A stretch of 20,723 nt of DNA. Source: a virus. This document shows, piece after piece, positions 1 to 19,481 of this stretch (position 1 is its first letter; each line of letters opens with the position of its first letter). Under the pieces are notes generated by a model. The model worked only from the letters and a program-made list of their open reading frames with translations, had not been told where the DNA came from and made no database searches. The position numbers and the translations under genes are program-made. Location: IMG/VR virus record IMGVR_UViG_3300021092_002390, positions 1 to 20,723 of that record, one strand, 5' to 3'.

Positions 1-553
1 TAAATCTACTGTCCATATTGGCTCCATTGCCATACTCCTCCAGTTCGAACATTATGGGATTGAGTCCTTGCCAATAGAATTCTTTTTCTGCACTCAACAT
101 GGTGCCTGCCTGCACTGGTTGATTGTGTATTAGGCTTTCGCCGTTCAATTTAAAATGAAAGTATTCTTGATTGATTCCAAATTTTTCATTGAAAGATTGC
201 AATGATTGTGCATCACACATTGATAAATTGTACACAAATTTACATGTCCACTGGTCTGCGTCTTTGTAAATCAATTCAATCTGTGCTGTGAGTGATATGT
301 GTTTGTCATCTTGCCAGCTTTGTTTATTTTGCAGTTTCAATGTGTTGATATTTTTTTGTAAAACAATTTCAGCATTTCTGCTTATGCTTTTTTTTTCAGC
401 AGTGTCCTTGCTTAATTCTATGGTATCAAACAGTAAGGCATTATTCCATTGCAGTGTCAATTGATCCTGTAGTGTGCCTTCAGCAACCAGTGCATTGGGT
501 GCATAAGAAGCACGCATCACTGGAAAATAATCAAACTGTAATGTTTTTTTCAT
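1..553 (-). CDS. Unknown protein, C-terminal end cut by the window edge
   Basis: An open frame begins with ATG at 553 and runs without a stop for 184 codons to the left edge, so only the N-terminal part is visible. It starts MKKTLQFDYFPVMRASY and is rich in Gln, Asn, Lys and aromatic residues. I see no signal peptide, membrane segment or catalytic motif and do not recognise the family. The start overlaps the stop of the upstream oxygenase gene by 4 bases (ATGA), so it belongs to the same minus-strand operon and is probably translated by coupling. No clear ribosome binding site precedes it. Its mixed soluble composition would fit a small virion-associated or substrate protein, but that is only a guess. 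Confidence 0.75.
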   Translation of the reverse strand, partial: MKKTLQFDYFPVMRASYAPNALVAEGTLQDQLTLQWNNALLFDTIELSKDTAEKKSISRNAEIVLQKNINTLKLQNKQSWQDDKHISLTAQIELIYKDADQWTCKFVYNLSMCDAQSLQSFNEKFGINQEYFHFKLNGESLIHNQPVQAGTMLSAEKEFYWQGLNPIMFELEEYGNGANMDSRF

Positions 554-1305
554 TGTTTTAATTTTGCTACTAGCTTTTTATTGAAAATACCTTCTATTCT
601 CATAGACCAACTGACTTTGTTGGTGTTTTCCAGTCCGCCATGCCAATCGTGATTGTTCCAGTAGAATGAGCTGCCGGGTTTCATGTGTATTTTTTCGTCT
701 CCGTTTTCCACATACAAAGATCTGTCGTTCATAGGGTCAAACCATATGAAATGCTCTTCTTGTTCATAGGGCTCCATATGTAAAAAACAATCTCTGTGTC
801 TGATAGTTTTTAGTCCAGAATTTTTCAACAACAGTATGATTGGCCCCAGTGGCTTGAATGGCAGTTTTTTAGCCCAATCCACCAGCGTGGGAAAATATTT
901 GGATGCCTCTGTCCATCTACAGTCATACATTGGTTTTTTATTTGCATCATAAGGCACACATGGAGCATTTATGCATCTGTCAAATTCTCTTATCACAAGA
1001 TAATTCAGTGCTTCATACACAGGATATTGATACATCAGCCAGTAATGAAAACCTACCATGTCGGTTTTTTCCAACTCTGCACCATACTGTTTTAATTTGG
1101 AATCTGTTTCTCTATCACGCCAATAATTATAGGCTCCTCTAATATCATCCACATATTCATCATGATTTTCTATGCCGTAGTTCAATCTAATATGTGCGTG
1201 AGCCTTGCCAATGCCATAGTGAATATCTTTGGTGATGTCTTTTAATTGTTGTATATTCACATACGGGTCCATACAGATGTATGGCTTACCATAAACACCT
1301 TTCAT
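550..1305 (-). CDS. 2-oxoglutarate/Fe(II) oxygenase, Asp/Asn beta-hydroxylase-like
   Basis: The predicted 251-residue protein carries the metal site of the cupin-fold 2OG oxygenases in its C-terminal third: HRD (HxD) at residues 170-172, a second His at 222 in DWHGG, and Arg236 in SMRIEG as the likely 2-oxoglutarate anchor. The spacing (about 50 residues from HxD to His, then 14 to Arg) suits the family. Known members hydroxylate protein side chains or small molecules; the substrate here is unknown. The first 120 residues match no domain I know. A longer frame begins at 1443, but the ATG at 1305 is preferred because a GGGGG ribosome-binding-like run lies just upstream and the preceding stop is one base away. 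It is one of three oxygenases in the same operon. Confidence 0.8.
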   Translation of the reverse strand: MKGVYGKPYICMDPYVNIQQLKDITKDIHYGIGKAHAHIRLNYGIENHDEYVDDIRGAYNYWRDRETDSKLKQYGAELEKTDMVGFHYWLMYQYPVYEALNYLVIREFDRCINAPCVPYDANKKPMYDCRWTEASKYFPTLVDWAKKLPFKPLGPIILLLKNSGLKTIRHRDCFLHMEPYEQEEHFIWFDPMNDRSLYVENGDEKIHMKPGSSFYWNNHDWHGGLENTNKVSWSMRIEGIFNKKLVAKLKQ

Positions 1306-1306
1306 G

Positions 1307-1855
1307 TTACCCCCACACGTTGAAAATATATTTGGGCACCAGTCCTGCATTGGATCCTGCATGCCATGCAGTGCGTCGGGGCCATTTCCAAGTGCTGCCT
1401 GTTTCTTGATTGTACAAACAATCATCCTCCACAATGAGCACATGTCCTGGTGCTGGTGGACTAATATGACAATGAAATCTTACTATTTCTTTTTTGTGTT
1501 CCAAAGTTTTTTCATCATCGGTGATATCCCAATGCCAAGGTGCCACATCACCTGGTTTTACTCTGCTGATCCAAGCATTGATATAACTTTTCATACCCAC
1601 CCATGCACAAAACTTTTCCACTATCTTTTTGTCAAAATTTGTGTTTGGTAAGTACATGTCCCAACTGGCATTGCCTCCTTCATGTTTCATTTTGTATCCA
1701 GCTTCTCGCAAGGGTTTGGCTACTTCTTCTACCCCTGGCACAAGATGCCCCACATCATGTCTTGGTCCAATGTAAGCACCCTGTTGATTTTCAATGTCTC
1801 TTATCACATTGCTCCAATCTATTATGTTTTTGCAGTTGCCCACATACTCAAGCAT
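1307..1855 (-). CDS. 2-oxoglutarate/Fe(II) oxygenase, Asp/Asn beta-hydroxylase-like (second of three)
   Basis: The 182-residue protein has HWD (HxD) at 108-110 in PWHWD and a distal His165 in AWHAGSN, which together form the expected iron-binding facial triad. At the place where the family usually has an Arg that binds the 2-oxoglutarate carboxylate, the sequence reads VPKYIFNVWG, so Lys175 may take that role or the co-substrate site may differ. The protein ends almost directly after this strand. The ATG at 1855 has AGGAG about nine bases upstream and overlaps the preceding gene by 8 bases (ATGCTTGA). Its sequence differs clearly from the oxygenases on either side, suggesting a different substrate rather than a recent duplicate. 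Confidence 0.78.
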   Translation of the reverse strand: MLEYVGNCKNIIDWSNVIRDIENQQGAYIGPRHDVGHLVPGVEEVAKPLREAGYKMKHEGGNASWDMYLPNTNFDKKIVEKFCAWVGMKSYINAWISRVKPGDVAPWHWDITDDEKTLEHKKEIVRFHCHISPPAPGHVLIVEDDCLYNQETGSTWKWPRRTAWHAGSNAGLVPKYIFNVWG

Positions 1856-2480
1856 TTAAAAAATCTCCTGGCCATTCACCAATATTCATGTGTATAGTGT
1901 TGTCATATATTTTCCATATGTCATACGTGTCTCCTTGCAACGCTGTCTTGGATCTTGGATGTGTGTGATCAATCACAACACTTTCATACACAGATTTGTG
2001 AACATATCTGTCTTGTTCGGACGCAGTGGCATACCAATCCATACAATGCATGCAGTTTTTGTTGTCCAAATAGAATGTGTGTGGATAAATGTTAATTTTT
2101 CTTAGATTTTTATCGCAAATATCTTTAAGCACATTTTTTATTTGCTGTTGCCAGTTGGGAATTTCTTCTATCGCGCCTGTATGTATCATTTCGCTGACAC
2201 TGCGATCATACCATTTAAAATCTATCAGTCTATTTTTTCTATCAATATCAATAATTTCTGGTGCATAACTTGTGCCACTCACCTTTACTATGTTGTTCAC
2301 TTCGTCTTCAAAAAATCTTTGCCTTTCGCTGTCAGAGAGATTAGATGCAGCATATTGATTGGGATTGAAATTCATGCGGAAAATAGTTTTAGCAGGATTA
2401 ATTAATGGTTCATAAATTAGATTGGCCACCATACGCATACCATTTTGCCATTTGTAAAAATTACTCCAGTATTCAATCAT
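1848..2480 (-). CDS. Unknown protein with faint protein-kinase-like architecture
   Basis: This 210-residue protein is not recognised with confidence. Its order of features resembles a minimal kinase or aminoglycoside-phosphotransferase fold: a basic strand KTIFRMNFN at 31-39, an acidic helix FFEDEVNNI at 56-64, a hinge-like strand RLIDFKWYDRS at 84-93, then NIYPHTFYLDN at 130-140 followed by CMDWY at 146-150. The last two could stand for a catalytic loop and a DFG-like metal-binding loop. The canonical HxD catalytic Asp is not evident, so it may be a divergent kinase, a pseudokinase, or something else. A GAGGAT ribosome binding site precedes the ATG at 2480. It overlaps both neighbours by 8 bases and sits between two 2OG oxygenases. 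Confidence 0.7.
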   Translation of the reverse strand: MIEYWSNFYKWQNGMRMVANLIYEPLINPAKTIFRMNFNPNQYAASNLSDSERQRFFEDEVNNIVKVSGTSYAPEIIDIDRKNRLIDFKWYDRSVSEMIHTGAIEEIPNWQQQIKNVLKDICDKNLRKINIYPHTFYLDNKNCMHCMDWYATASEQDRYVHKSVYESVVIDHTHPRSKTALQGDTYDIWKIYDNTIHMNIGEWPGDFLNA

Positions 2481-3168
2481 GATCTATCCTCACTTTAAAT
2501 CCGCAATTTTCGGAAATGTTATTTAATTCTGTCAAATATTCTTGTTCTAAATCCAGATGTATTTCTTCATCTGTGATAGCTTTAAAATTATTAATAATTT
2601 TTGCCTTATTTGCTTTGTTTAACCAGATAGAAAAAGTTTGATCAAAAAGATATCTCAAATTGTAAGGGCTATCAATGGCTCTAATTTTTATCTGGATTGG
2701 ATTTTTTAATTGACTTTTATTGAGCAAACGTCTTACTACCAATTGGATTCTGTCTAAATAACCAAAATTTACAGCAGTGTGTATGCGTGATGTGTCCATG
2801 AGATAGCAACAGTTGTCCACCAATGTAGGATACATTTTGCCATGGGCTAGATCTATCAAATAACTGTGTTCACCCTGCAAATTGACATGATATCTGTCAT
2901 CTATGTCTGCATGTGCTGTGTAATTGCAGCCAGGTTTGATCATCACCAGTCTTGCTTGACCCACAGGACCCAATTGTTCAAAAAAGGAAATTAAATTGGC
3001 ATGTTGAAATGCCGGTTTTAGATGCCAAGGATCATAAAACCAATTTCCACTGGGTGAATTGATTTCGATTTTTTGCATTAAGTCCTCAGGATCTTCATCA
3101 AATTTGCAGTTTGTGATAGCTTTTAAGATATCAGCTGATGAAAATTTAATATCTATTTTTTGCAGCAT
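2473..3168 (-). CDS. 2-oxoglutarate/Fe(II) oxygenase, Asp/Asn beta-hydroxylase-like (third of three)
   Basis: The 231-residue protein contains HAD (HxD) at residues 86-88 in YTAHADIDD, a distal His130 in RIHTAVNFG, and Arg140 and Arg146 downstream, one of which would anchor 2-oxoglutarate. The core occupies roughly residues 70-150; the C-terminal 80 residues are charged and unassigned. A longer frame starts at 3252, but it would cross the divergent promoter region, and its extra residues do not look like part of the fold, so ATG 3168 is chosen. No clear ribosome binding site is visible. This is the first gene of the leftward operon and is divergent from the QueC-like gene at 3230. Confidence 0.75.
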   Translation of the reverse strand: MLQKIDIKFSSADILKAITNCKFDEDPEDLMQKIEINSPSGNWFYDPWHLKPAFQHANLISFFEQLGPVGQARLVMIKPGCNYTAHADIDDRYHVNLQGEHSYLIDLAHGKMYPTLVDNCCYLMDTSRIHTAVNFGYLDRIQLVVRRLLNKSQLKNPIQIKIRAIDSPYNLRYLFDQTFSIWLNKANKAKIINNFKAITDEEIHLDLEQEYLTELNNISENCGFKVRIDHD

Positions 3169-3208
3169 AATAGTAATTATCGCAAAAAAAATGTGGTTAT
3201 GAAAATCC

Positions 3209-3216
3209 GATAAATA
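3209..3216 (+). promoter_or_regulatory. T4-like late-promoter octamer upstream of the plus-strand cassette
   Basis: The octamer GATAAATA lies 13 bases before the ATG at 3230. It differs at one base from the T4 late consensus TATAAATA and fits the NATAAATA form described for T4-like cyanophages. The same octamer precedes the tail gene starting at 19455 on the other strand. If it works as a late -10 element, the leader would be only about 7 bases long, and no Shine-Dalgarno sequence is visible. Confidence 0.55.
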
Positions 3217-3229
3217 CCTTGTCCATAAT

Positions 3230-4045
3230 ATGCCTAAATTTGAATTGATCAAAAAAATTTATCGTACAAGTGTGTTCAGCAAAATTTTGCATGAGCAGGA
3301 CGGAGTAATACTTCCTTTTCAACTCAATTGGAAAAAAATTGGTATCAGCGTGAGCGGAGGAGCCGACAGTGCTCTAATGTCCTATCTCCTGTGCAATATC
3401 ATTACTGAAAATAGATGCGAAACTGCAGTGCATATCATCACCAATGTGAGATGCTGGAAAACTCGACCTTGGCAGCAACAAAACAGCATAGATGTATATA
3501 ATTGGTTGCTGAAAAAATTCAAACACATACAGTTTTATCGTCATGAAAATTTTATAGCTCCTGACTTGGAGTGGGGTTCCAAAGGACCCAATATCGTGGA
3601 TGAATATGGAAAATTAAAAAGCGGCAATCAAATTGAACTGCGAGCACACGCAGAATATGTGGCTCACACGCAGCAATTAGATGCTTGGTATTGCGGGGTT
3701 ACTAAAAACCCTGATAAAGAATTTGATGGAAGACTGGTGGATCGAGATGTTGTCATAGACGCAGACTTAGATATTACACTGGATCGTCTGATCAAAGCAC
3801 ACATGGGCGGCTATGCTTGTCACCCATTCACATATGTGCAGAAGGACTGGATAGTTGCCCAATATAAAAAATTAGGCATTATGGACCTATTCGATCTTAC
3901 TCGCAGTTGTGAAGGTGACAAAGAAACTCATCCCAAAGTCTTTGGTGACTTGGATTACAGGACCTACAAGCCTGGGCTGCCCGTGCCAGTGTGTGGAGAA
4001 TGTTTTTGGTGTAAAGAAAGAAATTGGGGGTTAAACAATGCGTGA
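3230..4045 (+). CDS. QueC-like PP-loop ATPase with four-cysteine zinc site
   Basis: The 271-residue protein has the PP-loop SGGADS at residues 42-47, preceded by a hydrophobic strand (IGISV), as in N-type ATP pyrophosphatases that adenylate a carbonyl or carboxylate. Near the C-terminus, Cys227 and the CGECFWC cluster (Cys255, Cys258, Cys261) reproduce the C...CxxCxxC zinc site of QueC, the 7-cyano-7-deazaguanine synthase. Length is a little above usual QueC. No other deazaguanine genes (queD, queE, folE, tgt) are in the window, so it may have been recruited to adenylate another substrate, as in QueC relatives of defence systems (QatC, type IV CBASS Cap9). It leads a plus-strand cassette and overlaps the next radical SAM gene by 8 bases. 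Its CpG content is higher than that of most neighbours. Confidence 0.8.
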   Translation: MPKFELIKKIYRTSVFSKILHEQDGVILPFQLNWKKIGISVSGGADSALMSYLLCNIITENRCETAVHIITNVRCWKTRPWQQQNSIDVYNWLLKKFKHIQFYRHENFIAPDLEWGSKGPNIVDEYGKLKSGNQIELRAHAEYVAHTQQLDAWYCGVTKNPDKEFDGRLVDRDVVIDADLDITLDRLIKAHMGGYACHPFTYVQKDWIVAQYKKLGIMDLFDLTRSCEGDKETHPKVFGDLDYRTYKPGLPVPVCGECFWCKERNWGLNNA

Positions 4046-5456
4046 TCACAGTGAATATTGGATGAATGAGGAAGATTCACAACTGGGCAAATGGCAGAGA
4101 GAAATAGAATCTGTCACAGGCACATCTACCTACTGTATATTGCCTTGGATACACTTTGCCACCAGACCCAATGGTGACATGCGACTGTGTTGTTCAGCCA
4201 ATGCCAGTGGTGCCGGATCAGATCACACAGTGGGTATTATTAAACGAGAAGATGGCAAGCCTGCCAATTTTGGAGTGGACACTCCTATGAGTGCTTGGAA
4301 TAATGACTACATGAAAAGTGTGAGAACCACCATGTTAAAAGGTCAAATACCTGCCAGTTGCACCAAGTGTTTTGCTGAAGAAAGTGTGGGAGTGGTCAGC
4401 AAAAGGATTTGGGAGACTGGCACTTGGCACCGTGATGGGGTTGATGTGCCTGAATTGATACGACAGACTAAAGCAGATGGCACAGTGCCTGAAAAATTGT
4501 TGTATCTGGACCTGCGTTTAGGTCACACCTGCAATATCAAATGTGTGATGTGTTCACCACATGACAGCAGCAAGTGGGTACAAGATTGGCAACAACTGAT
4601 GCCACAACTGCAGAATAAAGAAGTTAAAGATCAAATTCAGTGGGATAGAAAGGAATTCAATAATTTTTGGCATGAAAAAGATACCTTCTGGCAAGAAATG
4701 TACAAACAAATACCCAATCTGAAACAAGTGTATTTTGCCGGTGGTGAACCTCTTATGATCAAAGAACATAAAACATTCATAGAAGAAATTGTTCGTCAAG
4801 GATATCAGGATACTATATTGTTGCGTTACAATTCTAATGGCATACTGGTGGATGAAGATTTAATCAAATTATGGAGTAAATTTAAAAAAGTAAAATTTGC
4901 TGTGAGCATGGATGCCACTCATCAGCGTGATGAATACATACGTTTTCCCACTCAATGGAGTACTGTGGAAAAGAATTTACATATGTTGGACAATACTCCT
5001 GACAACATTCAAGTGAGTTTGGCCACTGCCATACAAATTTTTAATATCAAACATCTTCCAGATTTTATGAAATGGAAAATTAAGAGTGGTTTTAAAAAAT
5101 TAAACGTAGGCACTGTGCCTGGCGGAGTACAAATGGGTGGTGGATTAGTCAACATGCATTTATTGTACATACCAACTTTTTTAAGCATACAAATATTGCC
5201 ACAAGAAGACAAAAAACAAATAAGAGCACTGTTTATGGATTTTAAAGATTGGTTGTGGCACAATTATAGACAGGACGATGATTTTTGGAAAATAAATCCT
5301 TATGGTTGGAGACGTTGGGAGGCAGTGTTGGATCATATGGACTCACAGGATCATTCTAGATTGTTGCCTGGTTTCAAAGATTACGTGAATAAATTAGATG
5401 CTATTAGAGGAATTTCTGCAGTGCATACCTTTCCTGAACTGGCACATTTGTTATGA
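4038..5456 (+). CDS. Radical SAM enzyme with N-terminal twitch/SPASM-like cysteine domain
   Basis: The 472-residue protein has two parts. Residues 33-111 form a cysteine-rich auxiliary-cluster-like region (CILPWIHF from Cys33, CC at 51-52, CTKC at 108-111) preceding the core. The radical SAM core then shows CNIKCVMC (Cys165, Cys169, Cys172), which binds the S-adenosylmethionine-cleaving 4Fe-4S cluster, and AGGEP at 234-238. An N-terminal placement of the auxiliary cysteines is characteristic of a radical SAM group seen in marine phages and often labelled twitch-domain proteins; their substrates are unknown. A GGGGG run upstream of ATG 4038 may serve as ribosome binding site. The gene overlaps its neighbours by 8 and 4 bases, which argues for coordinated translation with the QueC-like protein and the next radical SAM enzyme. 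Confidence 0.9.
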   Translation: MRDHSEYWMNEEDSQLGKWQREIESVTGTSTYCILPWIHFATRPNGDMRLCCSANASGAGSDHTVGIIKREDGKPANFGVDTPMSAWNNDYMKSVRTTMLKGQIPASCTKCFAEESVGVVSKRIWETGTWHRDGVDVPELIRQTKADGTVPEKLLYLDLRLGHTCNIKCVMCSPHDSSKWVQDWQQLMPQLQNKEVKDQIQWDRKEFNNFWHEKDTFWQEMYKQIPNLKQVYFAGGEPLMIKEHKTFIEEIVRQGYQDTILLRYNSNGILVDEDLIKLWSKFKKVKFAVSMDATHQRDEYIRFPTQWSTVEKNLHMLDNTPDNIQVSLATAIQIFNIKHLPDFMKWKIKSGFKKLNVGTVPGGVQMGGGLVNMHLLYIPTFLSIQILPQEDKKQIRALFMDFKDWLWHNYRQDDDFWKINPYGWRRWEAVLDHMDSQDHSRLLPGFKDYVNKLDAIRGISAVHTFPELAHLL

Positions 5457-6412
5457 TAACTCAAGTTTACAATCCGCAACGTAAAGACGTCTTACGTTTG
5501 GAATTTATGATAGGTAATACCTGCAATTATAAGTGTTGGTATTGTTTTGAAGGATCACATGAAGGCACGCACAGGTGGACTAATGACTTGGATCAACTGG
5601 TGATAAATTTTGTTCATTTGTTTGATAGATACAGAGCGATAGGCAAACGCAAACTAGAACTGCACATAGTGGGAGGAGAACCCACTTTGTGGCCTCAGTT
5701 GGGAGAATTCATAGAAAAAATACGCAAACAAATTCCGTCACATATTTCTATCAGCAGCAACGGCAGTAGAACACTGAGATGGTGGGAACAATATGCACAT
5801 GTGTTTGATAAAATTTTATTGAGTTGTCATCATCAACAAGTGCAAGTGCAAGATTTTATCAAAGTGGCTGACATGTGCCATAAAAAAGGACGCAGTCCCA
5901 CTGTGATGATGTTGATGGACCCTACTGCTTGGCAAAAATGTTTAGATTTAATTGAAACTTTAAAAACCAGTCGTTACAAATGGTTTATAGTGGCCATGGA
6001 GGTCATGCATAAGACTATCAAATTCACTGACGAACAAAAAAAATTTGTTGCTGACCCAATTAAACGTATGCCTAATCTTTGGACAATCTTTCGTCAATCT
6101 AAACACATGAAAGGTTCGCCCAAAGTTAAATTTGAAGATGGCTCCATTAAATCTGTGAATAGAAACTGGATTGTGCTGAACAAACAGAACAATTTTTATG
6201 GCTGGATGTGCAACATTGGAGTGGATAGCATGATGATAGATCCTGCTGGCGTGATCACAGCAGCTTGTAGAACAAAATTATTTGAACAGTACAACATATA
6301 TGATACTGATTTCACAAAAAAATTCAATCCTAATATTAAGCCAAAAATTTGTGACAAAAAAAATTCCTGCATGTGCCAACCTGAAAGTTTGTTAGACAAA
6401 TATAGAATTTAA
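5453..6412 (+). CDS. Radical SAM enzyme with C-terminal auxiliary-cluster motif
   Basis: The 319-residue protein begins almost directly with the radical SAM core: GNTCNYKCWYC (Cys24, Cys28, Cys31) and VGGEP at 73-77. The C-terminus holds five cysteines in a SPASM-like arrangement: Cys253 in GWMC, Cys272 in AACR, then Cys300 and CMC (Cys306, Cys308). Three minus-strand proteins in this window (starts 8033, 8935, 12773) share this plan, defining a local family of four. Such auxiliary clusters in characterised enzymes bind extra 4Fe-4S clusters and often go with peptide or protein substrates. The ATG at 5453 overlaps the previous stop as ATGA, with no obvious ribosome binding site. The stop codon overlaps that of the convergent SGNH gene. 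Confidence 0.9.
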   Translation: MITQVYNPQRKDVLRLEFMIGNTCNYKCWYCFEGSHEGTHRWTNDLDQLVINFVHLFDRYRAIGKRKLELHIVGGEPTLWPQLGEFIEKIRKQIPSHISISSNGSRTLRWWEQYAHVFDKILLSCHHQQVQVQDFIKVADMCHKKGRSPTVMMLMDPTAWQKCLDLIETLKTSRYKWFIVAMEVMHKTIKFTDEQKKFVADPIKRMPNLWTIFRQSKHMKGSPKVKFEDGSIKSVNRNWIVLNKQNNFYGWMCNIGVDSMMIDPAGVITAACRTKLFEQYNIYDTDFTKKFNPNIKPKICDKKNSCMCQPESLLDKYRI

Positions 6413-10199: not shown

Positions 10200-10803
10200 T
10201 TTTTTTACCTATGATCATAAAACGTTTGTATTTTTCGGTTTGTAGTTCCACAGGTTCCAACAGTGGAGTTATACCGCTACTGTCAACAAAGTCATTGAGA
10301 GATTGTTTGATGTTGACATGCTCCGCTATCTCAAAATTGTTGCTTTGAATGGCCAAAGTTGCACTATGTGGCACAAGTTGCAGCCATGTATCATATTCTA
10401 ACTGGGTGATGTGTTCACAAGCAGTGTTAATAATTAGATCAAATTTGTTATAATTTTTATATTTGGTCATATCTTGAGTAATCGCAAAGAATCTACCAGC
10501 TATTTCATATTGTTTATTCATGTTTCTTGCCACAACTTCACACTTTTTGTCTTTGTCCATGCTGGTTATTTCTTTCACAAACAAATTGCTGTTGAACATC
10601 AGTGTGGCCAACACACCATACCAACCACCACATATGAGAACTTTCTGATCAAATGGCCTGGTCAGTTTACTCAAATGCTCAATCAACCAAACCTTGCTGT
10701 TGATTTGACCTTTCCAAAAACTTTCCAATGTGCGATATTTGTCATCGGATTGCCTGATAGCATCCATCCAGAACAAAATGTCGTCTATTTTAATTTTTAA
10801 CAA
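10189..10803 (-). CDS. Class I SAM-dependent methyltransferase-like protein
   Basis: The predicted protein has the Rossmann-type methyltransferase order: a strand with VLICGGWYGVLATLM as motif I (glycine-rich S-adenosylmethionine loop), SMDKDKKC as the acidic end of strand 2, and FDLIINTACEHI as the motif IV-like strand. The target atom is unknown. The start is uncertain: a frame open to 10959 overlaps the upstream radical SAM gene deeply, and no ATG occurs near the junction. TTG 10803 (204 residues) is preferred because GGGGGT lies six bases upstream and the overlap is a modest 14 bases; ATG 10767 (192 residues) is the alternative. It sits between two radical SAM genes in one operon. Confidence 0.75.
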   Translation of the reverse strand: MLKIKIDDILFWMDAIRQSDDKYRTLESFWKGQINSKVWLIEHLSKLTRPFDQKVLICGGWYGVLATLMFNSNLFVKEITSMDKDKKCEVVARNMNKQYEIAGRFFAITQDMTKYKNYNKFDLIINTACEHITQLEYDTWLQLVPHSATLAIQSNNFEIAEHVNIKQSLNDFVDSSGITPLLEPVELQTEKYKRFMIIGKKNEK

Positions 10804-11779
10804 ATTGCACCCCCAGTTTGTCAAATGAACCACACTGCTTGCTGCATTCTTGCAGCCCTGTGGTGGACCATTTGGATTCAATTTTTTCAAAATAAGCACT
10901 GTCAAATATTTCTTGCAGAGTTTGTCTGTGCAGATTGGGAAATTGTCCAATCTTGTCAATGTAATCTATTCTGCTCTCCTGCATAGGTGGTATCCATTCC
11001 ATGTCTAGCCAACAACAAGGAGACACATTGCCACATGAACTCACATACAATTGTTTGTATTTCTGTGCTTTGCACACAATTATAGGATTTTCTTCTTTTT
11101 GTGATGATTCAATCAGTGGTATCATGTCTCTGCTGATGCTGCTGGCATACAGTTTATGAGTTGGTCTTCCCTGTTCATCTATCACTTGATGAAAATCTTT
11201 TTTGAATCTACTTGTGTGTTTCACTGTGAATTCTTTGAAACCCATGTCTATGCTGATTTGTTTGGCAGTGTTGATTTGATGTTCATTGTGTGCAAATACC
11301 AGCATGTGCCATCTGGCATGACCTCCTGCTGTGATGAATGCTTGTGCATTCTGTATTATTTTGTTGTAATCTGTGGCCACCCTATACAATTGATGCGTGT
11401 CTTGCAGTCCATCGATTCCAAATATCACACGCACCTGCAATTTAGCCAGTTTTATCCACCATTCTGCGTCTCGAGCACTGCCGTTTGTGTGCATGCTCAA
11501 TCTGATTGCTGAATTGGTGCTGCGAAGATATTCATAAATTTCCAATGTGTCTCTTGCCACCACAGGATCTCCAAGATTACCACACATAAAAAGACTGTGC
11601 AACTGTTGAATAAAATCTTTTGGGAACCATTTTTTAAATAATTCTAAATCTATTTCCTCCAGTTTGATAAAAGGATTTATTGGGCCACCATTTATGCGCC
11701 TTGGGCACATAGGACAGCGTGCTTGACACTTGCTGGTGTTTTCCAAATGAATTTCTCTTATGTCGGACAGTTTATACAT
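10790..11779 (-). CDS. Radical SAM/SPASM enzyme
   Basis: The 329-residue protein has CQARCPMC (Cys18, Cys22, Cys25) and, in place of GGEP, CGNLGDP at 66-72, as in SPASM enzymes of the MoaA/PqqE type. The C-terminus carries Cys236, then CGNVSPCCW (Cys249, Cys255, Cys256) and CSKQC (Cys312, Cys316), a more classical SPASM layout than in the other enzymes here. SPASM enzymes such as sulfatase-maturing and peptide-maturing enzymes commonly modify proteins or peptides; a few act on small molecules. AAGG precedes ATG 11779, which overlaps the preceding gene by 8 bases (ATGTATAA). It is not closely related to its neighbours, so it may catalyse a distinct step. Confidence 0.9.
   Translation of the reverse strand: MYKLSDIREIHLENTSKCQARCPMCPRRINGGPINPFIKLEEIDLELFKKWFPKDFIQQLHSLFMCGNLGDPVVARDTLEIYEYLRSTNSAIRLSMHTNGSARDAEWWIKLAKLQVRVIFGIDGLQDTHQLYRVATDYNKIIQNAQAFITAGGHARWHMLVFAHNEHQINTAKQISIDMGFKEFTVKHTSRFKKDFHQVIDEQGRPTHKLYASSISRDMIPLIESSQKEENPIIVCKAQKYKQLYVSSCGNVSPCCWLDMEWIPPMQESRIDYIDKIGQFPNLHRQTLQEIFDSAYFEKIESKWSTTGLQECSKQCGSFDKLGVQFVKN
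10809..10814 (-). promoter_or_regulatory. Possible ribosome binding site for a TTG start
   Basis: GGGGGT on the minus strand lies six bases before TTG 10803 of the methyltransferase-like gene. Similar GGGGG runs precede the starts at 1305 and 4038, so the phage may use this variant. Confidence 0.4.
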
Positions 11780-12773
11780 GTTTGACCTTGGGGATTTTAG
11801 AATCTGCTGAACTCACACAGCTGGGAGTTAAACAGATATTTGGTTTATCAAACAACTTGAACCCTTGTTCTATGTTGCCTAAAGGTTCATCATGACAACT
11901 GTAACTTCTTTTCACTTCACCTCCTGGTTCACGAATAATACAGCTTTGATAACCTGCATTACAATACCAACCTTTGAATTTGTTGAAACCAAAAGCATTG
12001 AATCTTTCTGCTTGATCCATAAAATACACATTGCCTTTGCTGTCTTTCAACTCAATTTGAAATAGATCTTCTATCACTGTGCCCTTTTTGATCTGTTGCG
12101 GGAAACCAGTCTGCATTTGATCAATTTGTTTTGCACTATATCCTTCTATCACTCTGCTGGCAGTGGGGTCACTTTGAGGTTTTAAAGTCACATTGATACC
12201 TCTTGAATGAAATCTAGTACATCTATCAAAATATTCATTAAATCTTGTGGGCACCATGACTTGATTAATTGTGACAAACACATTGTGAGACATCAACATT
12301 AGTATTTTATCTCCGAATGATTGTTCATCTGCGAATTCCGCATGAAAACTTGCAGTGATACTGCGTCTATTCAGTCTAGCTGTGGTATCCAACCATCTCT
12401 GCCACCATTTGACTGATGGACTGAGATTGGTGGTCATGTGTATGCTTTGATATTCAGGTTGTTTATCATCACTGTAGTGTTGTATCAGTTTTAAAAAATC
12501 CTTGTATGCAGTGGGTTCACCACCTGAAAAACTGAAATGAAAGTTGGAAAATCCATTTGATCTAGCCTGTCTCTTTATTTCATCCACAGTGTTGGTATAG
12601 ACCTGCAATGATCTATGATCTTTTGTTTTGCTCTTGGCATAAGGCCAACAGTAAGAACAATCATAATTGCAAAAACGTGCTAGAATCCAACTCACAGAAA
12701 ATAATTTGCTGTTCAACATGGTTTTTTGTCCAAAACTTTGGATATCTTCAAAAGGAATGTTGGTATCAATCAT
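11772..12773 (-). CDS. Radical SAM enzyme with altered C-terminal auxiliary-cluster motif
   Basis: The 333-residue protein has ARFCNYDCSYC (Cys35, Cys39, Cys42) and SGGEP ending at residue 87. The C-terminus follows the local family plan, with GWYCNAGYQS (Cys271), Cys293 and a GNIE segment, then CLTPSC (Cys314, Cys319) and SSADSKIPK. Where its three relatives have CxC, this protein has CVS: Ser321 replaces the second Cys, so one auxiliary-cluster ligand is lost; Cys278 is an extra cysteine that might compensate. ATG 12773 is preferred over an in-frame start at 12815 because it gives the 8-base overlap (ATGATTGA) seen elsewhere. It follows two glycosyltransferase-like genes. Confidence 0.9.
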   Translation of the reverse strand: MIDTNIPFEDIQSFGQKTMLNSKLFSVSWILARFCNYDCSYCWPYAKSKTKDHRSLQVYTNTVDEIKRQARSNGFSNFHFSFSGGEPTAYKDFLKLIQHYSDDKQPEYQSIHMTTNLSPSVKWWQRWLDTTARLNRRSITASFHAEFADEQSFGDKILMLMSHNVFVTINQVMVPTRFNEYFDRCTRFHSRGINVTLKPQSDPTASRVIEGYSAKQIDQMQTGFPQQIKKGTVIEDLFQIELKDSKGNVYFMDQAERFNAFGFNKFKGWYCNAGYQSCIIREPGGEVKRSYSCHDEPLGNIEQGFKLFDKPNICLTPSCVSSADSKIPKVKHV

Positions 12774-13455
12774 GTGTTGAGCTTTCAAATTGTGCTTGCA
12801 GCCATGCAAAGTCATTTATTTTTTTCAAAGCAGTAGGATTTCCTCTATGTTGTTCACCATATTGTCTGCCTAACACTGCCCCTTGTATTGTTTGTCGACC
12901 AAAAGGTTTTTCTTTGCCTTCATTACACCATATGTGCAATCTTTTTTCTGTTTCTACGTCATTCTGTCGATCAATAATCTTACTGCTCAGTTTTACACAC
13001 TCTCTAAAAGCTGACTTCCATGCACTGAAAGCATCTGTGTTGAAGGCTGTGACATTTGATATCTGTGGCATAGGAATAAACCAATCTGAAATACTGCTGG
13101 TCATATCTGTGCTGTCCATATTCATCTGCATGGTTTTTCTTTTTGGCAGTAATTTTACTCCTCCATAGCCATATTCTAAATTATTCACTGGATTCCTGCT
13201 GCGCCACACGTGCACTGCTTGTAGATGATATAGTTTAGGCACAAATTTGAAATCAAAATCAGGTTCAATCACTGCATCTGCATCAACCACCCAGAACATT
13301 TTAGTGATGCTCCTGTTGGCAGCTTGTTTGTGTGCTTCATGTATGCCTTTGACACCATGTACCCGCTGCGCAAATCCAAATCTCTGCTTTAACATTTGCC
13401 AATTGTGATCTGCGTTTGATTCTTGATAACTTATGAACATTATATCAAACATCAT
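12766..13455 (-). CDS. Glycosyltransferase-like protein (GT-A fold, DxD)
   Basis: The 229-residue protein opens with a hydrophobic strand DIMFISYQESNAD and carries WVVDADA at residues 55-61, whose Asp58-Ala-Asp60 fits the DxD metal and nucleotide-sugar motif of GT-A enzymes. It shares several blocks with its neighbour at 13452 (ISYxE-N, RVHGVKGIHEAH, a glycine-rich GYGGVKLL, and AF..W.SAFRE), so the two are paralogues. The sugar donor and acceptor are unknown, and a nucleotidyltransferase role cannot be excluded. AAGGA precedes ATG 13455, which overlaps the neighbour as ATGA. It lies between the glycosyltransferase group and the radical SAM group. Confidence 0.72.
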   Translation of the reverse strand: MMFDIMFISYQESNADHNWQMLKQRFGFAQRVHGVKGIHEAHKQAANRSITKMFWVVDADAVIEPDFDFKFVPKLYHLQAVHVWRSRNPVNNLEYGYGGVKLLPKRKTMQMNMDSTDMTSSISDWFIPMPQISNVTAFNTDAFSAWKSAFRECVKLSSKIIDRQNDVETEKRLHIWCNEGKEKPFGRQTIQGAVLGRQYGEQHRGNPTALKKINDFAWLQAQFESSTHD

Positions 13456-14366
13456 ATGGTTTTCCTTATGGTCCTTGGTGTGTTAATGTAGACTTTTTTG
13501 AAGAAGTCGCTCTGTTCATCCATCAAAGGGTGTGTTGGAAAATCTAGATCAATGTGTTTTTTTATATTGTTGCCTAAAAAACATATCTTATCCAATATCT
13601 GTTGATTGTTTTCAAGTCCATGTGAACTACTGATCCAAAGATCTTCTAATTTTTTGAAGTCTCTCACCTCAGTAAAGTCCCAAGGAGTTGCAGCCGGCGC
13701 AAATATTCTGTTGCAGGCTTCTCTTGCTCCCAATATGCTGTAAATTCCGTTTTCAACATCACAACCCACAGTCATCCATATGCACAATCTGTGCACATTT
13801 TGCCACCATAGTTCGTTTTTAGATTTAATTTTTACATTCTTATTGATACTCATTTTCACTCCTTCACGAAATCCAGCACGCCATGCTTGCTTGGGAGTGG
13901 CGTTGACATAACTGGTTGAAAAATTTTCATTAAATTGGAAAAGATTTTTGAAGAAGCAAAATTCAATCTCATTACTGTCCTGTCCTGCAAAATTTTCGTG
14001 AGTTTTCATAGTTTTAACAAAGTCTTTGGTCCACAATTTTAAACTTCCATTACCATATCTTAAACCATTCACATTGATGTGCCCACACCAACTGAATATC
14101 CAAGTGTCATCCATGCCCATTTGTTTCAGATTTATTTCCATATCTAATATTTTTGGGTCTAATTGGGTGTCTCCGTCCACAGTCATGAAATAATGTGTGC
14201 TTGACAGCTCACCACAGGCCTTGTGTGCAGTATCTGAACCATGCACGCCATGTATTCTTTTGGCCCAAGGTACTTTTCGCACAAGATCCGCGTAGTTTTT
14301 TTCACAATTGGGTTCATCATAACTTAGAAAAATTATATCGCAGTCTTTGATAGCAATTTTATCCAT
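13452..14366 (-). CDS. Glycosyltransferase-like protein (GT-A fold, DxD), paralogue of the neighbour
   Basis: The 304-residue protein shows IIFLSYDEPNCEKN at 11-24, AKRIHGVHGSDTAH at 35-48 and TVDGDTQLD at 62-70, with Asp64-Gly-Asp66 as the presumed DxD motif. A later block, RYGNGSLKLWTKD, and a QAWRAGFREGVKMS segment match the shorter paralogue encoded directly downstream. The C-terminal extension of about 70 residues is unique to this copy. ATG 14366 overlaps the preceding unknown gene by 8 bases (ATGGATAA). Two adjacent divergent copies suggest that two different sugars or acceptors are handled. The family assignment rests on the DxD block and the strand pattern only. Confidence 0.72.
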   Translation of the reverse strand: MDKIAIKDCDIIFLSYDEPNCEKNYADLVRKVPWAKRIHGVHGSDTAHKACGELSSTHYFMTVDGDTQLDPKILDMEINLKQMGMDDTWIFSWCGHINVNGLRYGNGSLKLWTKDFVKTMKTHENFAGQDSNEIEFCFFKNLFQFNENFSTSYVNATPKQAWRAGFREGVKMSINKNVKIKSKNELWWQNVHRLCIWMTVGCDVENGIYSILGAREACNRIFAPAATPWDFTEVRDFKKLEDLWISSSHGLENNQQILDKICFLGNNIKKHIDLDFPTHPLMDEQSDFFKKVYINTPRTIRKTI

Positions 14367-14934
14367 GTGTTCTTACAACTCCATAGTCGAATATTTTTTT
14401 ACAATAGAAATCAATGTTATAATCTTGCTGCCAATCATAATTCACACTGTCTTGATCACACAGCATTTTAAGATCTACTTCAAAGATATTAAGTATTTGT
14501 GTGGCATCATTGCGTTTACAACAATAAAACATATGGGATCTATTTTGATCATCAGGATTAAATGCTTGTAGTGTTTTTTTAAAACGACTAGAAGCAGAAA
14601 ATTCTATGCGATTAAGTGTTTTGTTCACAGTGATACATATGGCCGAATCATTTTGGTGTGTGTCAGGTATTTTATACACATTTGGATTAATGATTTCAGT
14701 GGTGGATACAGTGTTGTTGGAATCTATGTGCTGCAAAACTCCTTTTTTTCTCAAACTGTAACTGCTATTGTCATAGTGCACTTCATAATTGCTCATGTTT
14801 TCCATGCCCATGATAAATTTTTCACCCAAATTTAATTCTATTTCCATGCTGTTTGGCATTTGAGTAGTGCTGCATCCTAGACAACGTCCTGTGGCAGGAT
14901 CAAATTGTACAAACATTTTAGTTTGTGTGTTCAT
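14359..14934 (-). CDS. Unknown 191-residue protein with an N-terminal CxxC
   Basis: I do not recognise this protein. It starts MNTQTKMFVQFDPATGRCLG, with Cys18 and Cys21 as CLGC, and continues with beta-rich, Ser/Asn-rich sequence; a CC pair occurs near residue 138. There is no signal peptide or membrane segment. The opening, a short strand followed by a turn, resembles small phage tail-associated proteins, but I cannot support more. It lies between two pairs of glycosyltransferase-like genes, overlapping them by 8 and 17 bases, so it is co-expressed with them. It could be an acceptor protein, a virion component or an accessory factor. Confidence 0.7.
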   Translation of the reverse strand: MNTQTKMFVQFDPATGRCLGCSTTQMPNSMEIELNLGEKFIMGMENMSNYEVHYDNSSYSLRKKGVLQHIDSNNTVSTTEIINPNVYKIPDTHQNDSAICITVNKTLNRIEFSASSRFKKTLQAFNPDDQNRSHMFYCCKRNDATQILNIFEVDLKMLCDQDSVNYDWQQDYNIDFYCKKIFDYGVVRTHG

Positions 14935-15766
14935 AATATTTTTTTTCCAATGATTGCAACAACATGTCAGTTAAAAATTCACTTTCTACATAGTGTAGCA
15001 CTCCTTTTTGTAAGAAATTATCTATTTTTATTTCACAATCTTCATTGAAATACACATTTACTTTTTCCATCCAGTGTGTGGTAGGATACGTCCAATGTTG
15101 ATTATGTGATTTCATATGAGTAAAAGTCACGTATGAATTTTTCGATGTGATTTCATGCACGTTGTTCATTATTTTTGATGTGATGGCACCACTCACATCC
15201 ATACTGCGCCAATTTTGCTGATGTTTTGGCGTGAATTTTTCATAAAATGTTTGATAGGTCAGCAGCACAGTTTTTAACATTTCAAGAAACATTTTGTTTT
15301 TCTTGGTTTTTTTATAAAAGTGCAATCCAAAATACAAATTAGGCAGTTGATTTTCAACAAATGTTCTGCGATAAAAACTATTATCAGATACTGCATCGCG
15401 ATAGGTACGCACTTGACTGACAAAATACAAATTGTAGTTGCTGAGAAAGTTCCACCAATGACTGATATCATTCAATATCAACATGTCGGCGTCCATTATG
15501 ATCGTTTCATCATAGGGAGTTACACTGTAAATTTTGTACCTATTGGCTATTTTCCATGAGTCGTTCACAGCATCATCACTGCCAGGAATATCACACACGT
15601 GGTCAAACACTTTCATCATGTGGGAGGGCACTTTGACATTGGTAATAAGACAAAATTTCGCTGATGGCATGTGTATTTTTGTTGACAAAGCCAATGCATA
15701 TGCTTGTTTCATATAATCCACTTGATCATTGTGCTGCACAAATGTACAAAAACCGCGAGTGATCAT
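14918..15766 (-). CDS. Glycosyltransferase-like protein (GT-A fold, DAD motif)
   Basis: The 282-residue protein has FCLITNVKVP early on and VTPYDETIIMDADMLIL around residues 82-98, with Asp92-Ala-Asp94 as a DxD motif preceded by a hydrophobic strand, as in GT-A glycosyltransferases (GT8-like layout). The upstream neighbour has the matching block TPYEETLVMDTD, so the two are distant paralogues. Donor and acceptor are unknown. A longer frame starts at 15883, but ATG 15766 is preferred: AGGAG lies eight bases before it and it overlaps the preceding stop as ATGA. The overlap with the next gene is 17 bases. Confidence 0.75.
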   Translation of the reverse strand: MITRGFCTFVQHNDQVDYMKQAYALALSTKIHMPSAKFCLITNVKVPSHMMKVFDHVCDIPGSDDAVNDSWKIANRYKIYSVTPYDETIIMDADMLILNDISHWWNFLSNYNLYFVSQVRTYRDAVSDNSFYRRTFVENQLPNLYFGLHFYKKTKKNKMFLEMLKTVLLTYQTFYEKFTPKHQQNWRSMDVSGAITSKIMNNVHEITSKNSYVTFTHMKSHNQHWTYPTTHWMEKVNVYFNEDCEIKIDNFLQKGVLHYVESEFLTDMLLQSLEKKYYEHTN

Positions 15767-16620
15767 TGAAGCACTCCTGAATTTATTATGCCATCCAATG
15801 AAAATTTGTTCATCACATGCAAATTTATGTTGACAGCTGATGTATCCAGCAGGCCTTCTGCTGTGATCAGCTGTAGATGCCATTTGTTGTCTTTGAAACT
15901 CACAGCCACATCTCTATCTGTGATATAAAATAAAGAGTCAGGCAACTGCTGTGGCCAGAAACTGCGTTGTTTGTGATTGATTTCGTGCAGTGCCATACTG
16001 AAAGCATAGTCATTTCTAAAATTTTTTTCATGTATTGTCCAAATAAACCTATAATATGCCCAATTGTGTTTGATGTGGGCTATTAATTCAAACAATTTCT
16101 GCACACGTGGCGTTTTTCTAAAAAAGAAAACAGTAGCCCAATACATTTTGATGCCTGTGTCGCTCATATTTTCTATTTGATATTCTGGTTTATGTTGACG
16201 GTTGATATATTTGGCATGTTGGTTGATTAAAAAGTCTTGTTTGCTGTGAAAACATTTCAGTAAATTTTTGTTGCCAATAATAAAATCTGTGTCCATAACC
16301 AATGTTTCTTCATAGGGAGTCAATGCATAGGCAGATGAACGCAATTGGTTGTGCCATTGATCGCTGATTTTATTCAATGCTCCATTGTAAAAATCCCTCA
16401 ATTGTGATTGTGTGTTATCATCGTTGATGATCACGTGTTGAAACACTGTGCTATATTTTTTAAATTTATTGTGTAGATGTACAGAACCTTGTGCACTGGT
16501 TACCAAACTGACAGGCAAATTAAGAATTTTTTTTACCTGCACAGCAGCAAATATGGATTGTTTGATATAATCTATGGTGTTGTTGTTGTATGCAAACATC
16601 ACCACCCCTTGATTGCTCAT
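15763..16620 (-). CDS. Glycosyltransferase-like protein (GT-A fold, DTD motif)
   Basis: The 285-residue protein begins with VVMFAYNNNTIDYIKQ, then LPVSLVTSAQG, and carries ALTPYEETLVMDTDFIIGN around residues 99-117, with Asp110-Thr-Asp112 as the putative DxD motif. The same order of blocks occurs in the downstream neighbour, which supports a shared fold and an old duplication. The C-terminal 100 residues, including a KDNKWHLQLITAEGL segment, have no recognised motif. ATG 16620 overlaps the preceding gene as ATGA. As in the other pair at 12766-14366, tandem divergent copies are kept in one operon, possibly for successive sugar additions. Confidence 0.73.
   Translation of the reverse strand: MSNQGVVMFAYNNNTIDYIKQSIFAAVQVKKILNLPVSLVTSAQGSVHLHNKFKKYSTVFQHVIINDDNTQSQLRDFYNGALNKISDQWHNQLRSSAYALTPYEETLVMDTDFIIGNKNLLKCFHSKQDFLINQHAKYINRQHKPEYQIENMSDTGIKMYWATVFFFRKTPRVQKLFELIAHIKHNWAYYRFIWTIHEKNFRNDYAFSMALHEINHKQRSFWPQQLPDSLFYITDRDVAVSFKDNKWHLQLITAEGLLDTSAVNINLHVMNKFSLDGIINSGVLQ
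15774..15778 (-). promoter_or_regulatory. Ribosome binding site that fixes the start at 15766
   Basis: AGGAG on the minus strand lies eight bases before ATG 15766 (spacer TGCTTCA plus one base). It supports this start over the longer frame that would reach 15883 and overlap the preceding gene deeply. Confidence 0.65.
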
Positions 16621-16967
16621 GTGATTTGCACTTTGCCTCTTTCCTGAATCAATCTGTTGTATTCAGTGTGGTAGGAATTAAGATTGCCTTGATACAGGTT
16701 CCAAATTTCATCATAAAACTCCTGCAAATTTGATACCAGCACTGGCAGCCTATAATCATCCAACAAAATCACGTCAGACTGTCGCTGTTCATTGAGATAA
16801 TTTTTACAGAGTGCAATTAATTTTTCATTCACAGTGAATTGATGACCCTGATGAAACCATATGTTGCTGTCCAAAAATTTATCCTGCAGAATCTGCAACT
16901 GATTGTTGAAACTTTGGGTGGCAATAGACATCTCCAAAATTTCAATAGCATTTATATTTTTTTTCAT
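16617..16967 (-). CDS. Small unknown protein, first gene of the long minus-strand operon
   Basis: The 116-residue protein is charged, apparently helical, and not recognised. Notable segments are VILLDDYRLPVLVSNLQEFY and a C-terminal YHTEYNRLIQERGKVQIT. It lacks cysteines apart from one near the middle and has no membrane segment or catalytic motif. Short helical proteins with a similar LQEFY...Y...EYNRL pattern occur near tail genes of marine phages, but that is a memory-based impression. ATG 16967 is preferred over an in-frame TTG at 16982, which would fall inside the promoter -10 element. The gene directly follows a sigma70-like promoter and overlaps the next gene as ATGA. Confidence 0.65.
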   Translation of the reverse strand: MKKNINAIEILEMSIATQSFNNQLQILQDKFLDSNIWFHQGHQFTVNEKLIALCKNYLNEQRQSDVILLDDYRLPVLVSNLQEFYDEIWNLYQGNLNSYHTEYNRLIQERGKVQIT

Positions 16968-16981
16968 GATTTTACTATGCA

Positions 16982-17010
16982 AGTATAAAACACTTTTTGT
17001 AAAAAGTCAA
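16982..17010 (-). promoter_or_regulatory. Sigma70-like promoter for the modification operon
   Basis: On the minus strand, TTGACT (17010-17005) and TATACT (16987-16982) are separated by exactly 17 bases; each hexamer matches the sigma70 consensus at five of six positions. It lies in the longest gap of the window, before the 116-residue gene that heads the leftward operon. The predicted transcript start would be about 8 bases before ATG 16967, leaving almost no leader. Confidence 0.55.
16993..17006. repeat. Short perfect inverted repeat inside the promoter
   Basis: CTTTTT and AAAAAG form a perfect six-base inverted repeat around a central GT. It fills most of the spacer between the -35 and -10 elements and touches the -35 box, so it could be an operator. 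AT-rich palindromes also arise by chance. Confidence 0.35.
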
Positions 17011-19473: not shown

Positions 19474-19481
19474 TATTTATC
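19474..19481 (-). promoter_or_regulatory. T4-like late-promoter octamer before the tail gene
   Basis: GATAAATA on the minus strand immediately follows the TAA stop of the upstream tail gene and lies 18 bases before ATG 19455, leaving room for a short leader with a ribosome binding site. It is identical to the plus-strand octamer at 3209-3216. Confidence 0.6.

Follow-up and report, generated by a model that had tools for sequence, protein, structure and literature searches.

Why should a phage keep a whole suite of radical S-adenosylmethionine (SAM) enzymes, oxygenases and glycosyltransferases directly beside its tail genes? The question is posed by IMG/VR virus record IMGVR_UViG_3300021092_002390, whose complete sequence of 20,723 bases (b) is referred to here as the window. 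We read 24 genes in it (g1 to g24), mostly overlapping and arranged in tight operons in which neighbours overlap or lie no more than about 80 b apart; in relatives, the enzyme island extends beyond the left end of the window. A first-pass annotation had described a dense modification locus abutting tail genes and suggested that it acts on tail fibres. The observation is sound, and stronger than that annotation could show: the core of the set is conserved, it has a preferred place, and cultured relatives share a similar layout. The gene set, its conservation, its usual adjacency to tail genes, the late-promoter motifs and the scarcity of membrane proteins are matters of observation; the reading that we favour, which we consider evenly poised between right and wrong, is that the locus is a late pathway putting a sugar-containing modification on tail proteins.

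The enzymes vary in how securely they can be named. All seven proteins that the first-pass annotation had credited with radical SAM cores (g7, g8, g10, g11, g12, g14 and g15) carry CxxxCxxC in a motif census, and six pass the cut-off of the Radical_SAM model PF04055 (29.5 bits), g10 lying under it (24.6 bits, E 3e-5). Two of them, g7 and g12, are members of the N-terminal twitch subfamily, with NF033640 scores of 386.3 and 317.3 bits where the cut-off is 170. The three oxygenases were also borne out, with HxD and a distal His invariant in g2, g3 and g5 (16 aligned sequences each). In g5, where these residues are H89, D91 and H133 in alignment numbering, the following Arg is invariant too and a solved beta-hydroxylase is matched (7v4f, E 1.3e-14), which gives g5 both the HxD...H...R signature and the solved homologue of an Asp beta-hydroxylase. 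Neither g2 nor g3 had a significant match in family or PDB profile searches; the g3 family is represented by up to five copies, one of them a fusion, in the relative G007. A further enzyme, unnamed in the first-pass annotation, is g4, whose AlphaFold2 model (mean predicted local distance difference test, pLDDT, 92.9) has a kinase fold with Foldseek matches including PRPK/Bud32, CurKC and WbdD. An HRD-type catalytic Asp is not evident by eye in the g4 alignment, and the protein is possibly a pseudokinase or other transferase. One gene of G007 (L122:3921-5120) joins a kinase-fold protein of the g4 type (residues 1-229) to an oxygenase of the g3 type (229-396).

Four DxD proteins had been called glycosyltransferase-like, a label that suits one pair better than the other. 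A joint profile of g19 and g20 matches glycogenin over its N-terminal part (E 7.5e-5), and DxD occurs in both proteins, its second Asp being invariant in the alignment, so that homology to a GT8 enzyme and the DxD motif coincide; this profile (A4) was found in 23 of 28 records. The g16 protein has a sub-threshold GT2 match (E 0.004) and g17 is linked to it by 27% identity and a common DxD, with no PDB match for their joint profile. Glycosyltransferases of the g16 type enlarged with repeated related segments, 644 and 1,057 amino acids long, occur in the relatives G007 and G024 (L121:10598-12532 and L170:9699-12872). The methyltransferase and SGNH-hydrolase labels are weak: g13 has sub-threshold matches only, its profile finding no PDB entry and the other family searches, NCBIfam included, no methyltransferase, and g9 retains GDS and a late N-H motif in all five sequences aligned, with no significant family match.

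The protein recognised at first pass by its SGGADS sequence, g6, is a PP-loop protein by motif and by model. The model (pLDDT 89.4) has QueC as its best Foldseek match (E 1.8e-7), and PHROG 1550, described as 'QueC-like', matches the C-terminal part (E 4.7e-6). Re-alignment gave Z scores of 14.0 for TilS (1ni5), 13.9 for QueC (3bl5), 13.3 for Cap9 with its target (9nto) and 12.8 for QatC (9y01), and the fold lists also held TilS, NcsA and TtuA at similar scores; because TilS ties with QueC and Cap9, the fold alone cannot choose among them. Across 22 aligned sequences S42, G43, G44, D46, S47, C227, C255, C258 and C261 are invariant, and all 22 keep the four cysteines in the order SCE...CxxCxxC together with HPF(x)4K. 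Hence g6 has the SGGxDS loop and the four-Cys putative zinc site that characterise the QueC family, with a longer spacing between first and second Cys than in canonical QueC. The canonical motifs YxQxHxxE, VPxRN and YPDC (PMC13329287) were not seen by eye in the g6 alignment and Pfam QueC (PF06508) was not reported at E 0.1; taken with the fold, the unseen motifs mean that g6 is QueC-like without being a canonical QueC. Fold, SGGxDS loop, CE...CxxCxxC and PF(x)4K liken it to two QueC-like enzymes that conjugate proteins, QatC and the Cap9 of type IV CBASS, the cyclic-oligonucleotide-based antiphage signalling systems (PMC11996544, PMC13279940, PMC13329287). The Cap9 motifs are CE(x)6CxxCxxC and PF(x)4K (PMC13329287), and Cap9 attaches a deazaguanine to a protein N-terminus (PMC11996544). 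Unlike these proteins g6 is phage-borne and sits within a radical SAM island, and no conserved N-terminal-Gly target was found for it among 42 protein families; a ligase role is plausible.

This set of enzymes is kept in related phages. Scanning IMG/VR with g12 found 83 relatives, of which 80 were kept, and scanning with g6 found 36. In 76 of the 80 loci g12 is 58-81% identical to that of the window; three loci reach 100%, and L082 stands at 40%. When the 34 g12 loci that span 20 kb or more are compared, g7 and g11 recur in all 34, g5 in 33, g14 and g3 in 32, g13 in 31, g2 in 30, g6 and g15 in 29, g4 in 28, g8 in 25 and g16 in 16, although some loci are near-copies (L060-L062, for example), so that the independent cases are fewer. 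Each of these loci has 4 to 13 matches to the radical SAM families of the window, and the Pfam model finds 3 to 17 radical SAM genes in every one of 27 records tested. Gene order, strand and number differ between subgroups of relatives. Conservation in related contigs, which the first-pass annotation had named as a check, mostly holds and, since the set forms one island usually linked to the tail genes, the objection foreseen there, that the genes might be scattered in relatives, fails.

The island has a preferred side of the tail module. In extended contexts the order runs from a giant tail protein (4,907 amino acids in G001, 5,182 in G015) through c13 (200 amino acids), one to four fibre paralogues, g22 and g21 to the glycosyltransferase pair g20/g19, g18 and g17, and then to the radical SAM genes; the far end is bounded by c16 in six of seven contexts, G001 stopping earlier. 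The single c16 protein scanned contains the receptor-binding-protein domain Mtd_N (E 6e-12). The 4,907-residue tail protein (L129:3374-18097) has a carbohydrate-binding module 5/12 above cut-off and an FG-GAP repeat match. Near the far end lies an extra radical SAM gene (L132:18495-19643) whose product bears an HMPTM-type zinc ribbon at its N-terminus; this gene's family is present in four of the seven contexts.

Approached from the tail side, with c13 as query, the relationship is one-sided. Relatives of c13 numbered at least 580, of which we kept the 80 best, a sample therefore biased towards the window's own lineage. Where at least 9 kb of downstream sequence was available (56 loci), fibres and g22 were present in all 56, g21 in 50, g20 and g19 in 49 each and g17 in 27; radical SAM genes were seen in only four, because the first ones listed lie some 10-25 kb from c13. 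A PF04055 search of the longer records, which contain 39 of the 80 loci and may include near-copies, found radical SAM genes in 30, and all nine records without them end no more than 14.2 kb from c13. Every record reaching at least 14.5 kb past c13 carries them (26/26; median 8, maximum 21) and, among the radical SAM places listed, 150 of 150 are downstream of c13, at distances of up to 91 kb. The 170-kb record G044, which includes L212, has 21 radical SAM genes by the Pfam model, those listed spanning about 55 kb downstream of the tail gene.

Two cultured jumbo phages have a similar layout. A search of 50,697 records of isolated phages returned no match for g12 (E 1e-5), g6 (0.01) or g20 (0.001), and for g7 three weak records, none of them a Campylobacter phage. 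T4-type Gp23 was found in 8 of 21 records of relatives tested, and the capsid protein of the relative G003 is closest to those of the jumbo phages Phosso (73%), Vibrio phage 2.275.O and PA5oct. In Sinorhizobium phage Phosso and Agrobacterium phage Atu_ph07 a giant tail protein, a c13 homologue and a g23-like fibre are followed by radical SAM genes. Four of the Phosso genes scanned match Radical_SAM, two of them above cut-off, beside a cupin gene, and Atu_ph07 has at the corresponding place four CxxxCxxC open reading frames (ORFs) annotated as hypothetical. Four protein pairs of the two phages are 56-81% identical; similarity to the radical SAM proteins of the window is distant only, and the two differ from the window in having a smaller set, with a cupin-domain gene (Phosso) or a related gene (Atu_ph07). 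For PA5oct, the record puts the mark ESI-MS/MS (electrospray ionization tandem mass spectrometry) on the homologues of the giant protein, of c13 and of g23 (gp359), and a distant relative of g22 (gp360; 26% identical to a g22-like G015 protein, E 8e-19), marks that support these being virion proteins.

Promoter motifs point to the time at which these genes would be used. The heptamer ATAAATA, which we take to be the core of the T4 late promoter, is the most enriched of its length upstream of genes, occurring at 31 of the 125 genes that have at least 20 b of free upstream space. By place it is found at 22 of 30 tail-side genes (c12, c13, c16, c40 and g22-g24), at 6 of 47 island genes, among them g6, a g2-like gene and the divergent c52/c53 pair, and at 3 of 48 others; enrichment at the tail genes makes these very probably late genes. 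Within 60 b upstream of g6 it occurs in 20 of 49 distinct stretches, or in 11 of 37 with near-identical ones collapsed against 0.2 expected, and 18 of 28 g5/g6 spacers contain it (20 sites on both strands, 0.6 expected). The complete T4 late motif TATAAATA is under-represented for the base composition, at 0-7 sites per context where about 7-19 are expected (seven contexts), as if avoided outside promoters. The cassette of the window follows the tail genes mostly on the same strand and in part has late-type sites of its own, a combination that suggests late expression. Transmembrane-like segments, scored by a simple hydropathy rule, occur in none of the 24 window proteins, in 6 of 404 island ORFs and in 9 of 255 outside; their scarcity argues against membrane export steps and does not distinguish the island from its surroundings. 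Late motifs and few membrane proteins would together be compatible with a late substrate in the cytoplasm, such as a tail protein.

Further evidence of sugar chemistry comes from sister islands, which contain a UDP-glucose/GDP-mannose dehydrogenase, a class-III aminotransferase and a short epimerase-like protein; on the G028 contigs there are a full-length NAD epimerase, a class-I/II aminotransferase, a cytidylyltransferase, a carbamoyltransferase and TauD. Such genes are signs of a decorated sugar, at least in some of these phages, and they fit a tail-protein and a host-surface substrate alike.

We propose a tail and host-recognition island of which this locus is the enzymatic half. Late in infection, along with the fibre genes, the GT8-like and GT2-like transferases would be transcribed and would equip tail or receptor-binding proteins with a sugar-containing modification, and the radical SAM, Asp-hydroxylase-like, kinase-fold and methyltransferase-like enzymes and the QueC/Cap9-like ATP ligase would tailor either the attached group or the protein residues that bear it. 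The phage may benefit through a change in how it binds receptors or through protection from host factors. A covalent product, its tail-protein substrate, late expression, the order of steps and the benefit are what we infer. The narrower idea, that several radical SAM enzymes, 2OG hydroxylases and the QueC/Cap9-like ligase jointly install a hybrid sugar-bearing tail modification that is diversified between phages, is put forward more tentatively and is on balance doubtful. The first-pass suggestion of tail fibres as target gains from the tail link and the conserved set; fibres as substrate would be a deduction that sequence does not cleanly separate from remodelling of the host surface.

Several results weigh against this proposal. 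A modified virion protein has so far been observed in no case. The adjacency to tail genes claimed at first pass holds for the window and for most relatives, and it fails in 2 of 12 extended-context phages, where the core cassette is no longer beside the fibres: in G006 it lies at 145-173 kb with fibres at 60-80 kb, and in G008 at 149-180 kb with fibres at 10-30 kb, the glycosyltransferase pair staying by the fibres with at least two and at least four radical SAM genes respectively. Because only 6 of 47 island genes have the motif, the case for the cassette being expressed late as a whole depends in part on its running in the same direction as the fibre genes. The conserved N-terminal Gly, the known type of Cap9/QatC target, was found in none of 42 families each present in at least four phages (start codons being guessed). 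Giant tail protein, c13 and fibre homologues occur also in PA5oct, Vibrio phage 2.275.O and slurp01, and, where 25-29 kb around c13 or the fibre were read, no CxxxCxxC ORF of at least 150 amino acids was found in any of the three; tails of this kind in general do not need the chemistry. Finally, the position of the island can stem from a recombination hot spot and not from function.

The first-pass annotation had taken a small molecule for the main alternative, a rank that belongs to a change of the host surface. On that account, unlikely in our estimate and nonetheless the foremost competitor, the island is used during infection to remodel a host-surface glycan, the lipopolysaccharide (LPS) O-chain, for instance to keep rival phages out. 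The GT8 pair, the sugar-nucleotide enzymes of sister islands and the published view of the pelagimyophage GT8 genes (PMC7029224) speak for it. With almost no membrane proteins, however, no phage-encoded flippase or polymerase is apparent, and the direction shared with the fibre genes and the late motifs, seen at tail genes and at some operons of the cassette, fit it less well, although a late surface change is still possible through the export machinery of the host.

Two further accounts are each improbable. In one, a hypervariable recombination island gathers unrelated auxiliary metabolic genes and lies by the fibres incidentally, in keeping with the differences in gene order and number between relatives and with the Campylobacter phage radical SAM modules, which were termed interchangeable and probably non-essential (PMC2853527); yet some ten core families are kept in most long loci, g12 retains its 58-81% identity in 76 of 80, and all listed radical SAM places are on one side of c13. 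In the other, the island makes a small molecule or a free modified peptide that is released or acts within the host. Natural-product clusters often contain radical SAM/SPASM, 2OG and PP-loop enzymes, and NCBIfam models of peptide maturases show weak, sub-cut-off resemblance. Against this, a precursor-peptide gene would hardly fit into gaps of at most about 80 b, the genes scanned included no carrier-protein or exporter family, and transmembrane-like segments are nearly absent. No free space above about 80 b for the precursor gene of a ribosomally synthesized and post-translationally modified peptide (RiPP) exists in the window operons, overlapping genes and genes outside the window not having been searched; it is possible that the tail protein is itself a RiPP-type precursor.

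Least probable of all is hypermodification of phage DNA or RNA, for instance with sugar-bearing 7-deazaguanine-type bases, for which the QueC-like fold and PHROG match of g6, the DNA glycosylation known from phage glycosyltransferases and a possible supply of precursor by the host can be cited, against a location by tail and not replication genes, the canonical QueC substrate motifs unseen in g6, and a QueD-type PTPS protein in 1 and PF06508 QueC in 2 (one above cut-off) of 15 long records, possibly fragments, a scarcity for which we rejected the canonical QueC/DNA deazaguanine route.

As a kind, the tail-linked variable island with glycosyltransferase and radical SAM genes is already known; the novelty lies in variation on it, namely the retained enzyme set, which includes a QueC/Cap9-like ligase, and the rule that the position is one-sided. 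To our knowledge, the proposed tail chemistry is known from no virion. The closest published counterpart is the host recognition cluster (HRC) of pelagimyophages, a variable island of T4-like phages that lies downstream of VrlC, a large tail gene, and contains tail fibres, GT8 genes and, in some genomes, radical SAM cassettes; its glycosyltransferases were read as LPS-modifying (PMC7029224). The HRC is defined between VrlC and the neck gene gp14 (PMC7029224); here the side with the giant tail, fibre and glycosyltransferase genes is what is observed. The present island differs in keeping a core of radical SAM, 2OG, QueC-like, kinase-fold and methyltransferase-like genes, and in the closeness of the G003 capsid protein to those of jumbo phages. 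Campylobacter phages CP220 and CPt10 are likewise T4-related and rich in radical SAM genes, with 11-12 of them, five in an exchangeable module which, unlike the island of the window, has a putative glycine amidinotransferase and was read as metabolic (PMC2853527). Together with a T4-like marine genome with 12 radical SAM genes (PMC5332604), they make the first-pass statement that phages usually carry at most a few such enzymes too strong. Jumbo phage FLC6 has cupin, radical SAM and 2OG genes within gp70-gp82 (PMC8066314). Phage-encoded sugars are placed on capsid and tail proteins of mycobacteriophages (PMC12619734, citing Freeman et al. 2023), resembling the sugars proposed here for virion proteins; radical SAM and 2OG tailoring enzymes go unmentioned in the available part of that source. 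Within the portion of the open-access literature available to us, no report or proposal of virion or tail modification by radical SAM enzymes was found.

If the proposal is true, the receptor-binding tails of a widespread uncultured phage group bear a new virion chemistry, which would affect host-range prediction from sequence, and the islands would be a new source of radical SAM enzymes that modify proteins or sugars. The old puzzle of a dozen radical SAM genes in some T4-like phages becomes testable because two cultured phages have such genes at the same place.

Features of the window, with coordinates, strand and the basis of each assignment.
Feature	Position	Strand	Basis
g1, cassette gene without assigned function, truncated by window end	2..553	-	no family match
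g2, Fe(II)/2OG-oxygenase-like	550..1443	-	H216, D218, H268 invariant
g3, 2OG-oxygenase-like	1307..1855	-	H108, D110, H165 invariant
g4, protein-kinase fold	1848..2480	-	AlphaFold2 model, Foldseek
g5, Asp beta-hydroxylase-like 2OG oxygenase	2473..3168	-	HxD...H...R, 7v4f match
NATAAATA, T4-type late-promoter-like site, upstream of g6-g8	3209..3216	+	
g6, PP-loop protein, QueC/Cap9/QatC-like fold, four invariant Cys	3230..4045	+	alignment, model, PHROG 1550
g7, N-terminal twitch/SPASM radical SAM	4038..5456	+	NF033640
g8, radical SAM	5453..6412	+	PF04055, 48.6 bits
g9, SGNH-hydrolase-like, motif basis only	6409..7110	-	
g10, radical SAM	7053..8090	-	CxxxCxxC; PF04055 24.6 bits, under cut-off
g11, radical SAM	8015..8944	-	PF04055, 49.4 bits
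g12, N-terminal twitch radical SAM, query of relatives scan	8928..10199	-	NF033640
g13, methyltransferase-like	10189..10800	-	sub-threshold Pfam MTS match; listed ORF reaches 10959
g14, radical SAM with C-terminal SPASM	10790..11779	-	PF04055 35.2, PF13186 26.3 bits
g15, radical SAM	11772..12815	-	PF04055, 51.3 bits
g16, glycosyltransferase-like, weak GT2	12766..13455	-	sub-threshold GT2 match
g17, glycosyltransferase-like, g16 relative	13452..14366	-	alignment with g16
g18, no assigned function	14359..14934	-	weak PHROG match only; 33/56 c13 loci
g19, GT8/glycogenin-like glycosyltransferase	14918..15883	-	joint g19/g20 profile
g20, GT8/glycogenin-like glycosyltransferase	15763..16620	-	joint g19/g20 profile
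g21, small conserved protein without assigned function	16617..16982	-	50/56 c13 loci
g22, tail-module gene	17063..17959	-	56/56 c13 loci
g23, tail-fibre protein, weak Peptidase_G2 autocleavage domain	18019..19455	-	PHROG tail fibre
NATAAATA, late-promoter-like site, starts 26 b upstream of g23	19474..19481	-	
g24, fibre paralogue, truncated by window end	19482..20723	-	PHROG virion structural

The start of g5 was set at an internal ATG, the listed ORF reaching 3252. The truncated g1 has relatives in L005, L087-L089, L097 and others at 41-100% identity, and the member of the g24 family in G001 is 738 amino acids long. The Peptidase_G2 match of g23 is under cut-off (E 8e-4).

A search of genome_contigs gave 11 matches, of which the best was followed, the other ten being weaker (E 7e-14 to 2e-4), and a bacterial home of the cassette is possible. 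A bacterial source for this best match was rejected, since it sits on a 108-kb contig that is itself phage-like and was binned with a gammaproteobacterial metagenome-assembled genome (MAG). Contigs of a gammaproteobacterial MAG (G028:C3, with L153-L158, and G028:C12, with L159) resemble T4-like phages, have the same kind of island and are probably co-binned. A weaker g12 relative on a contig of a Defluviitaleaceae MAG (L143; 30%, E 7e-14) is a possible cellular cousin. Vibrio phage K566 (L140) has another cluster, with several N-twitch-like radical SAM genes, two GT8 genes and GT4-like genes; its neighbours are NAMPT and PagP-like genes, and in the stretch shown no annotated tail genes are close to it.

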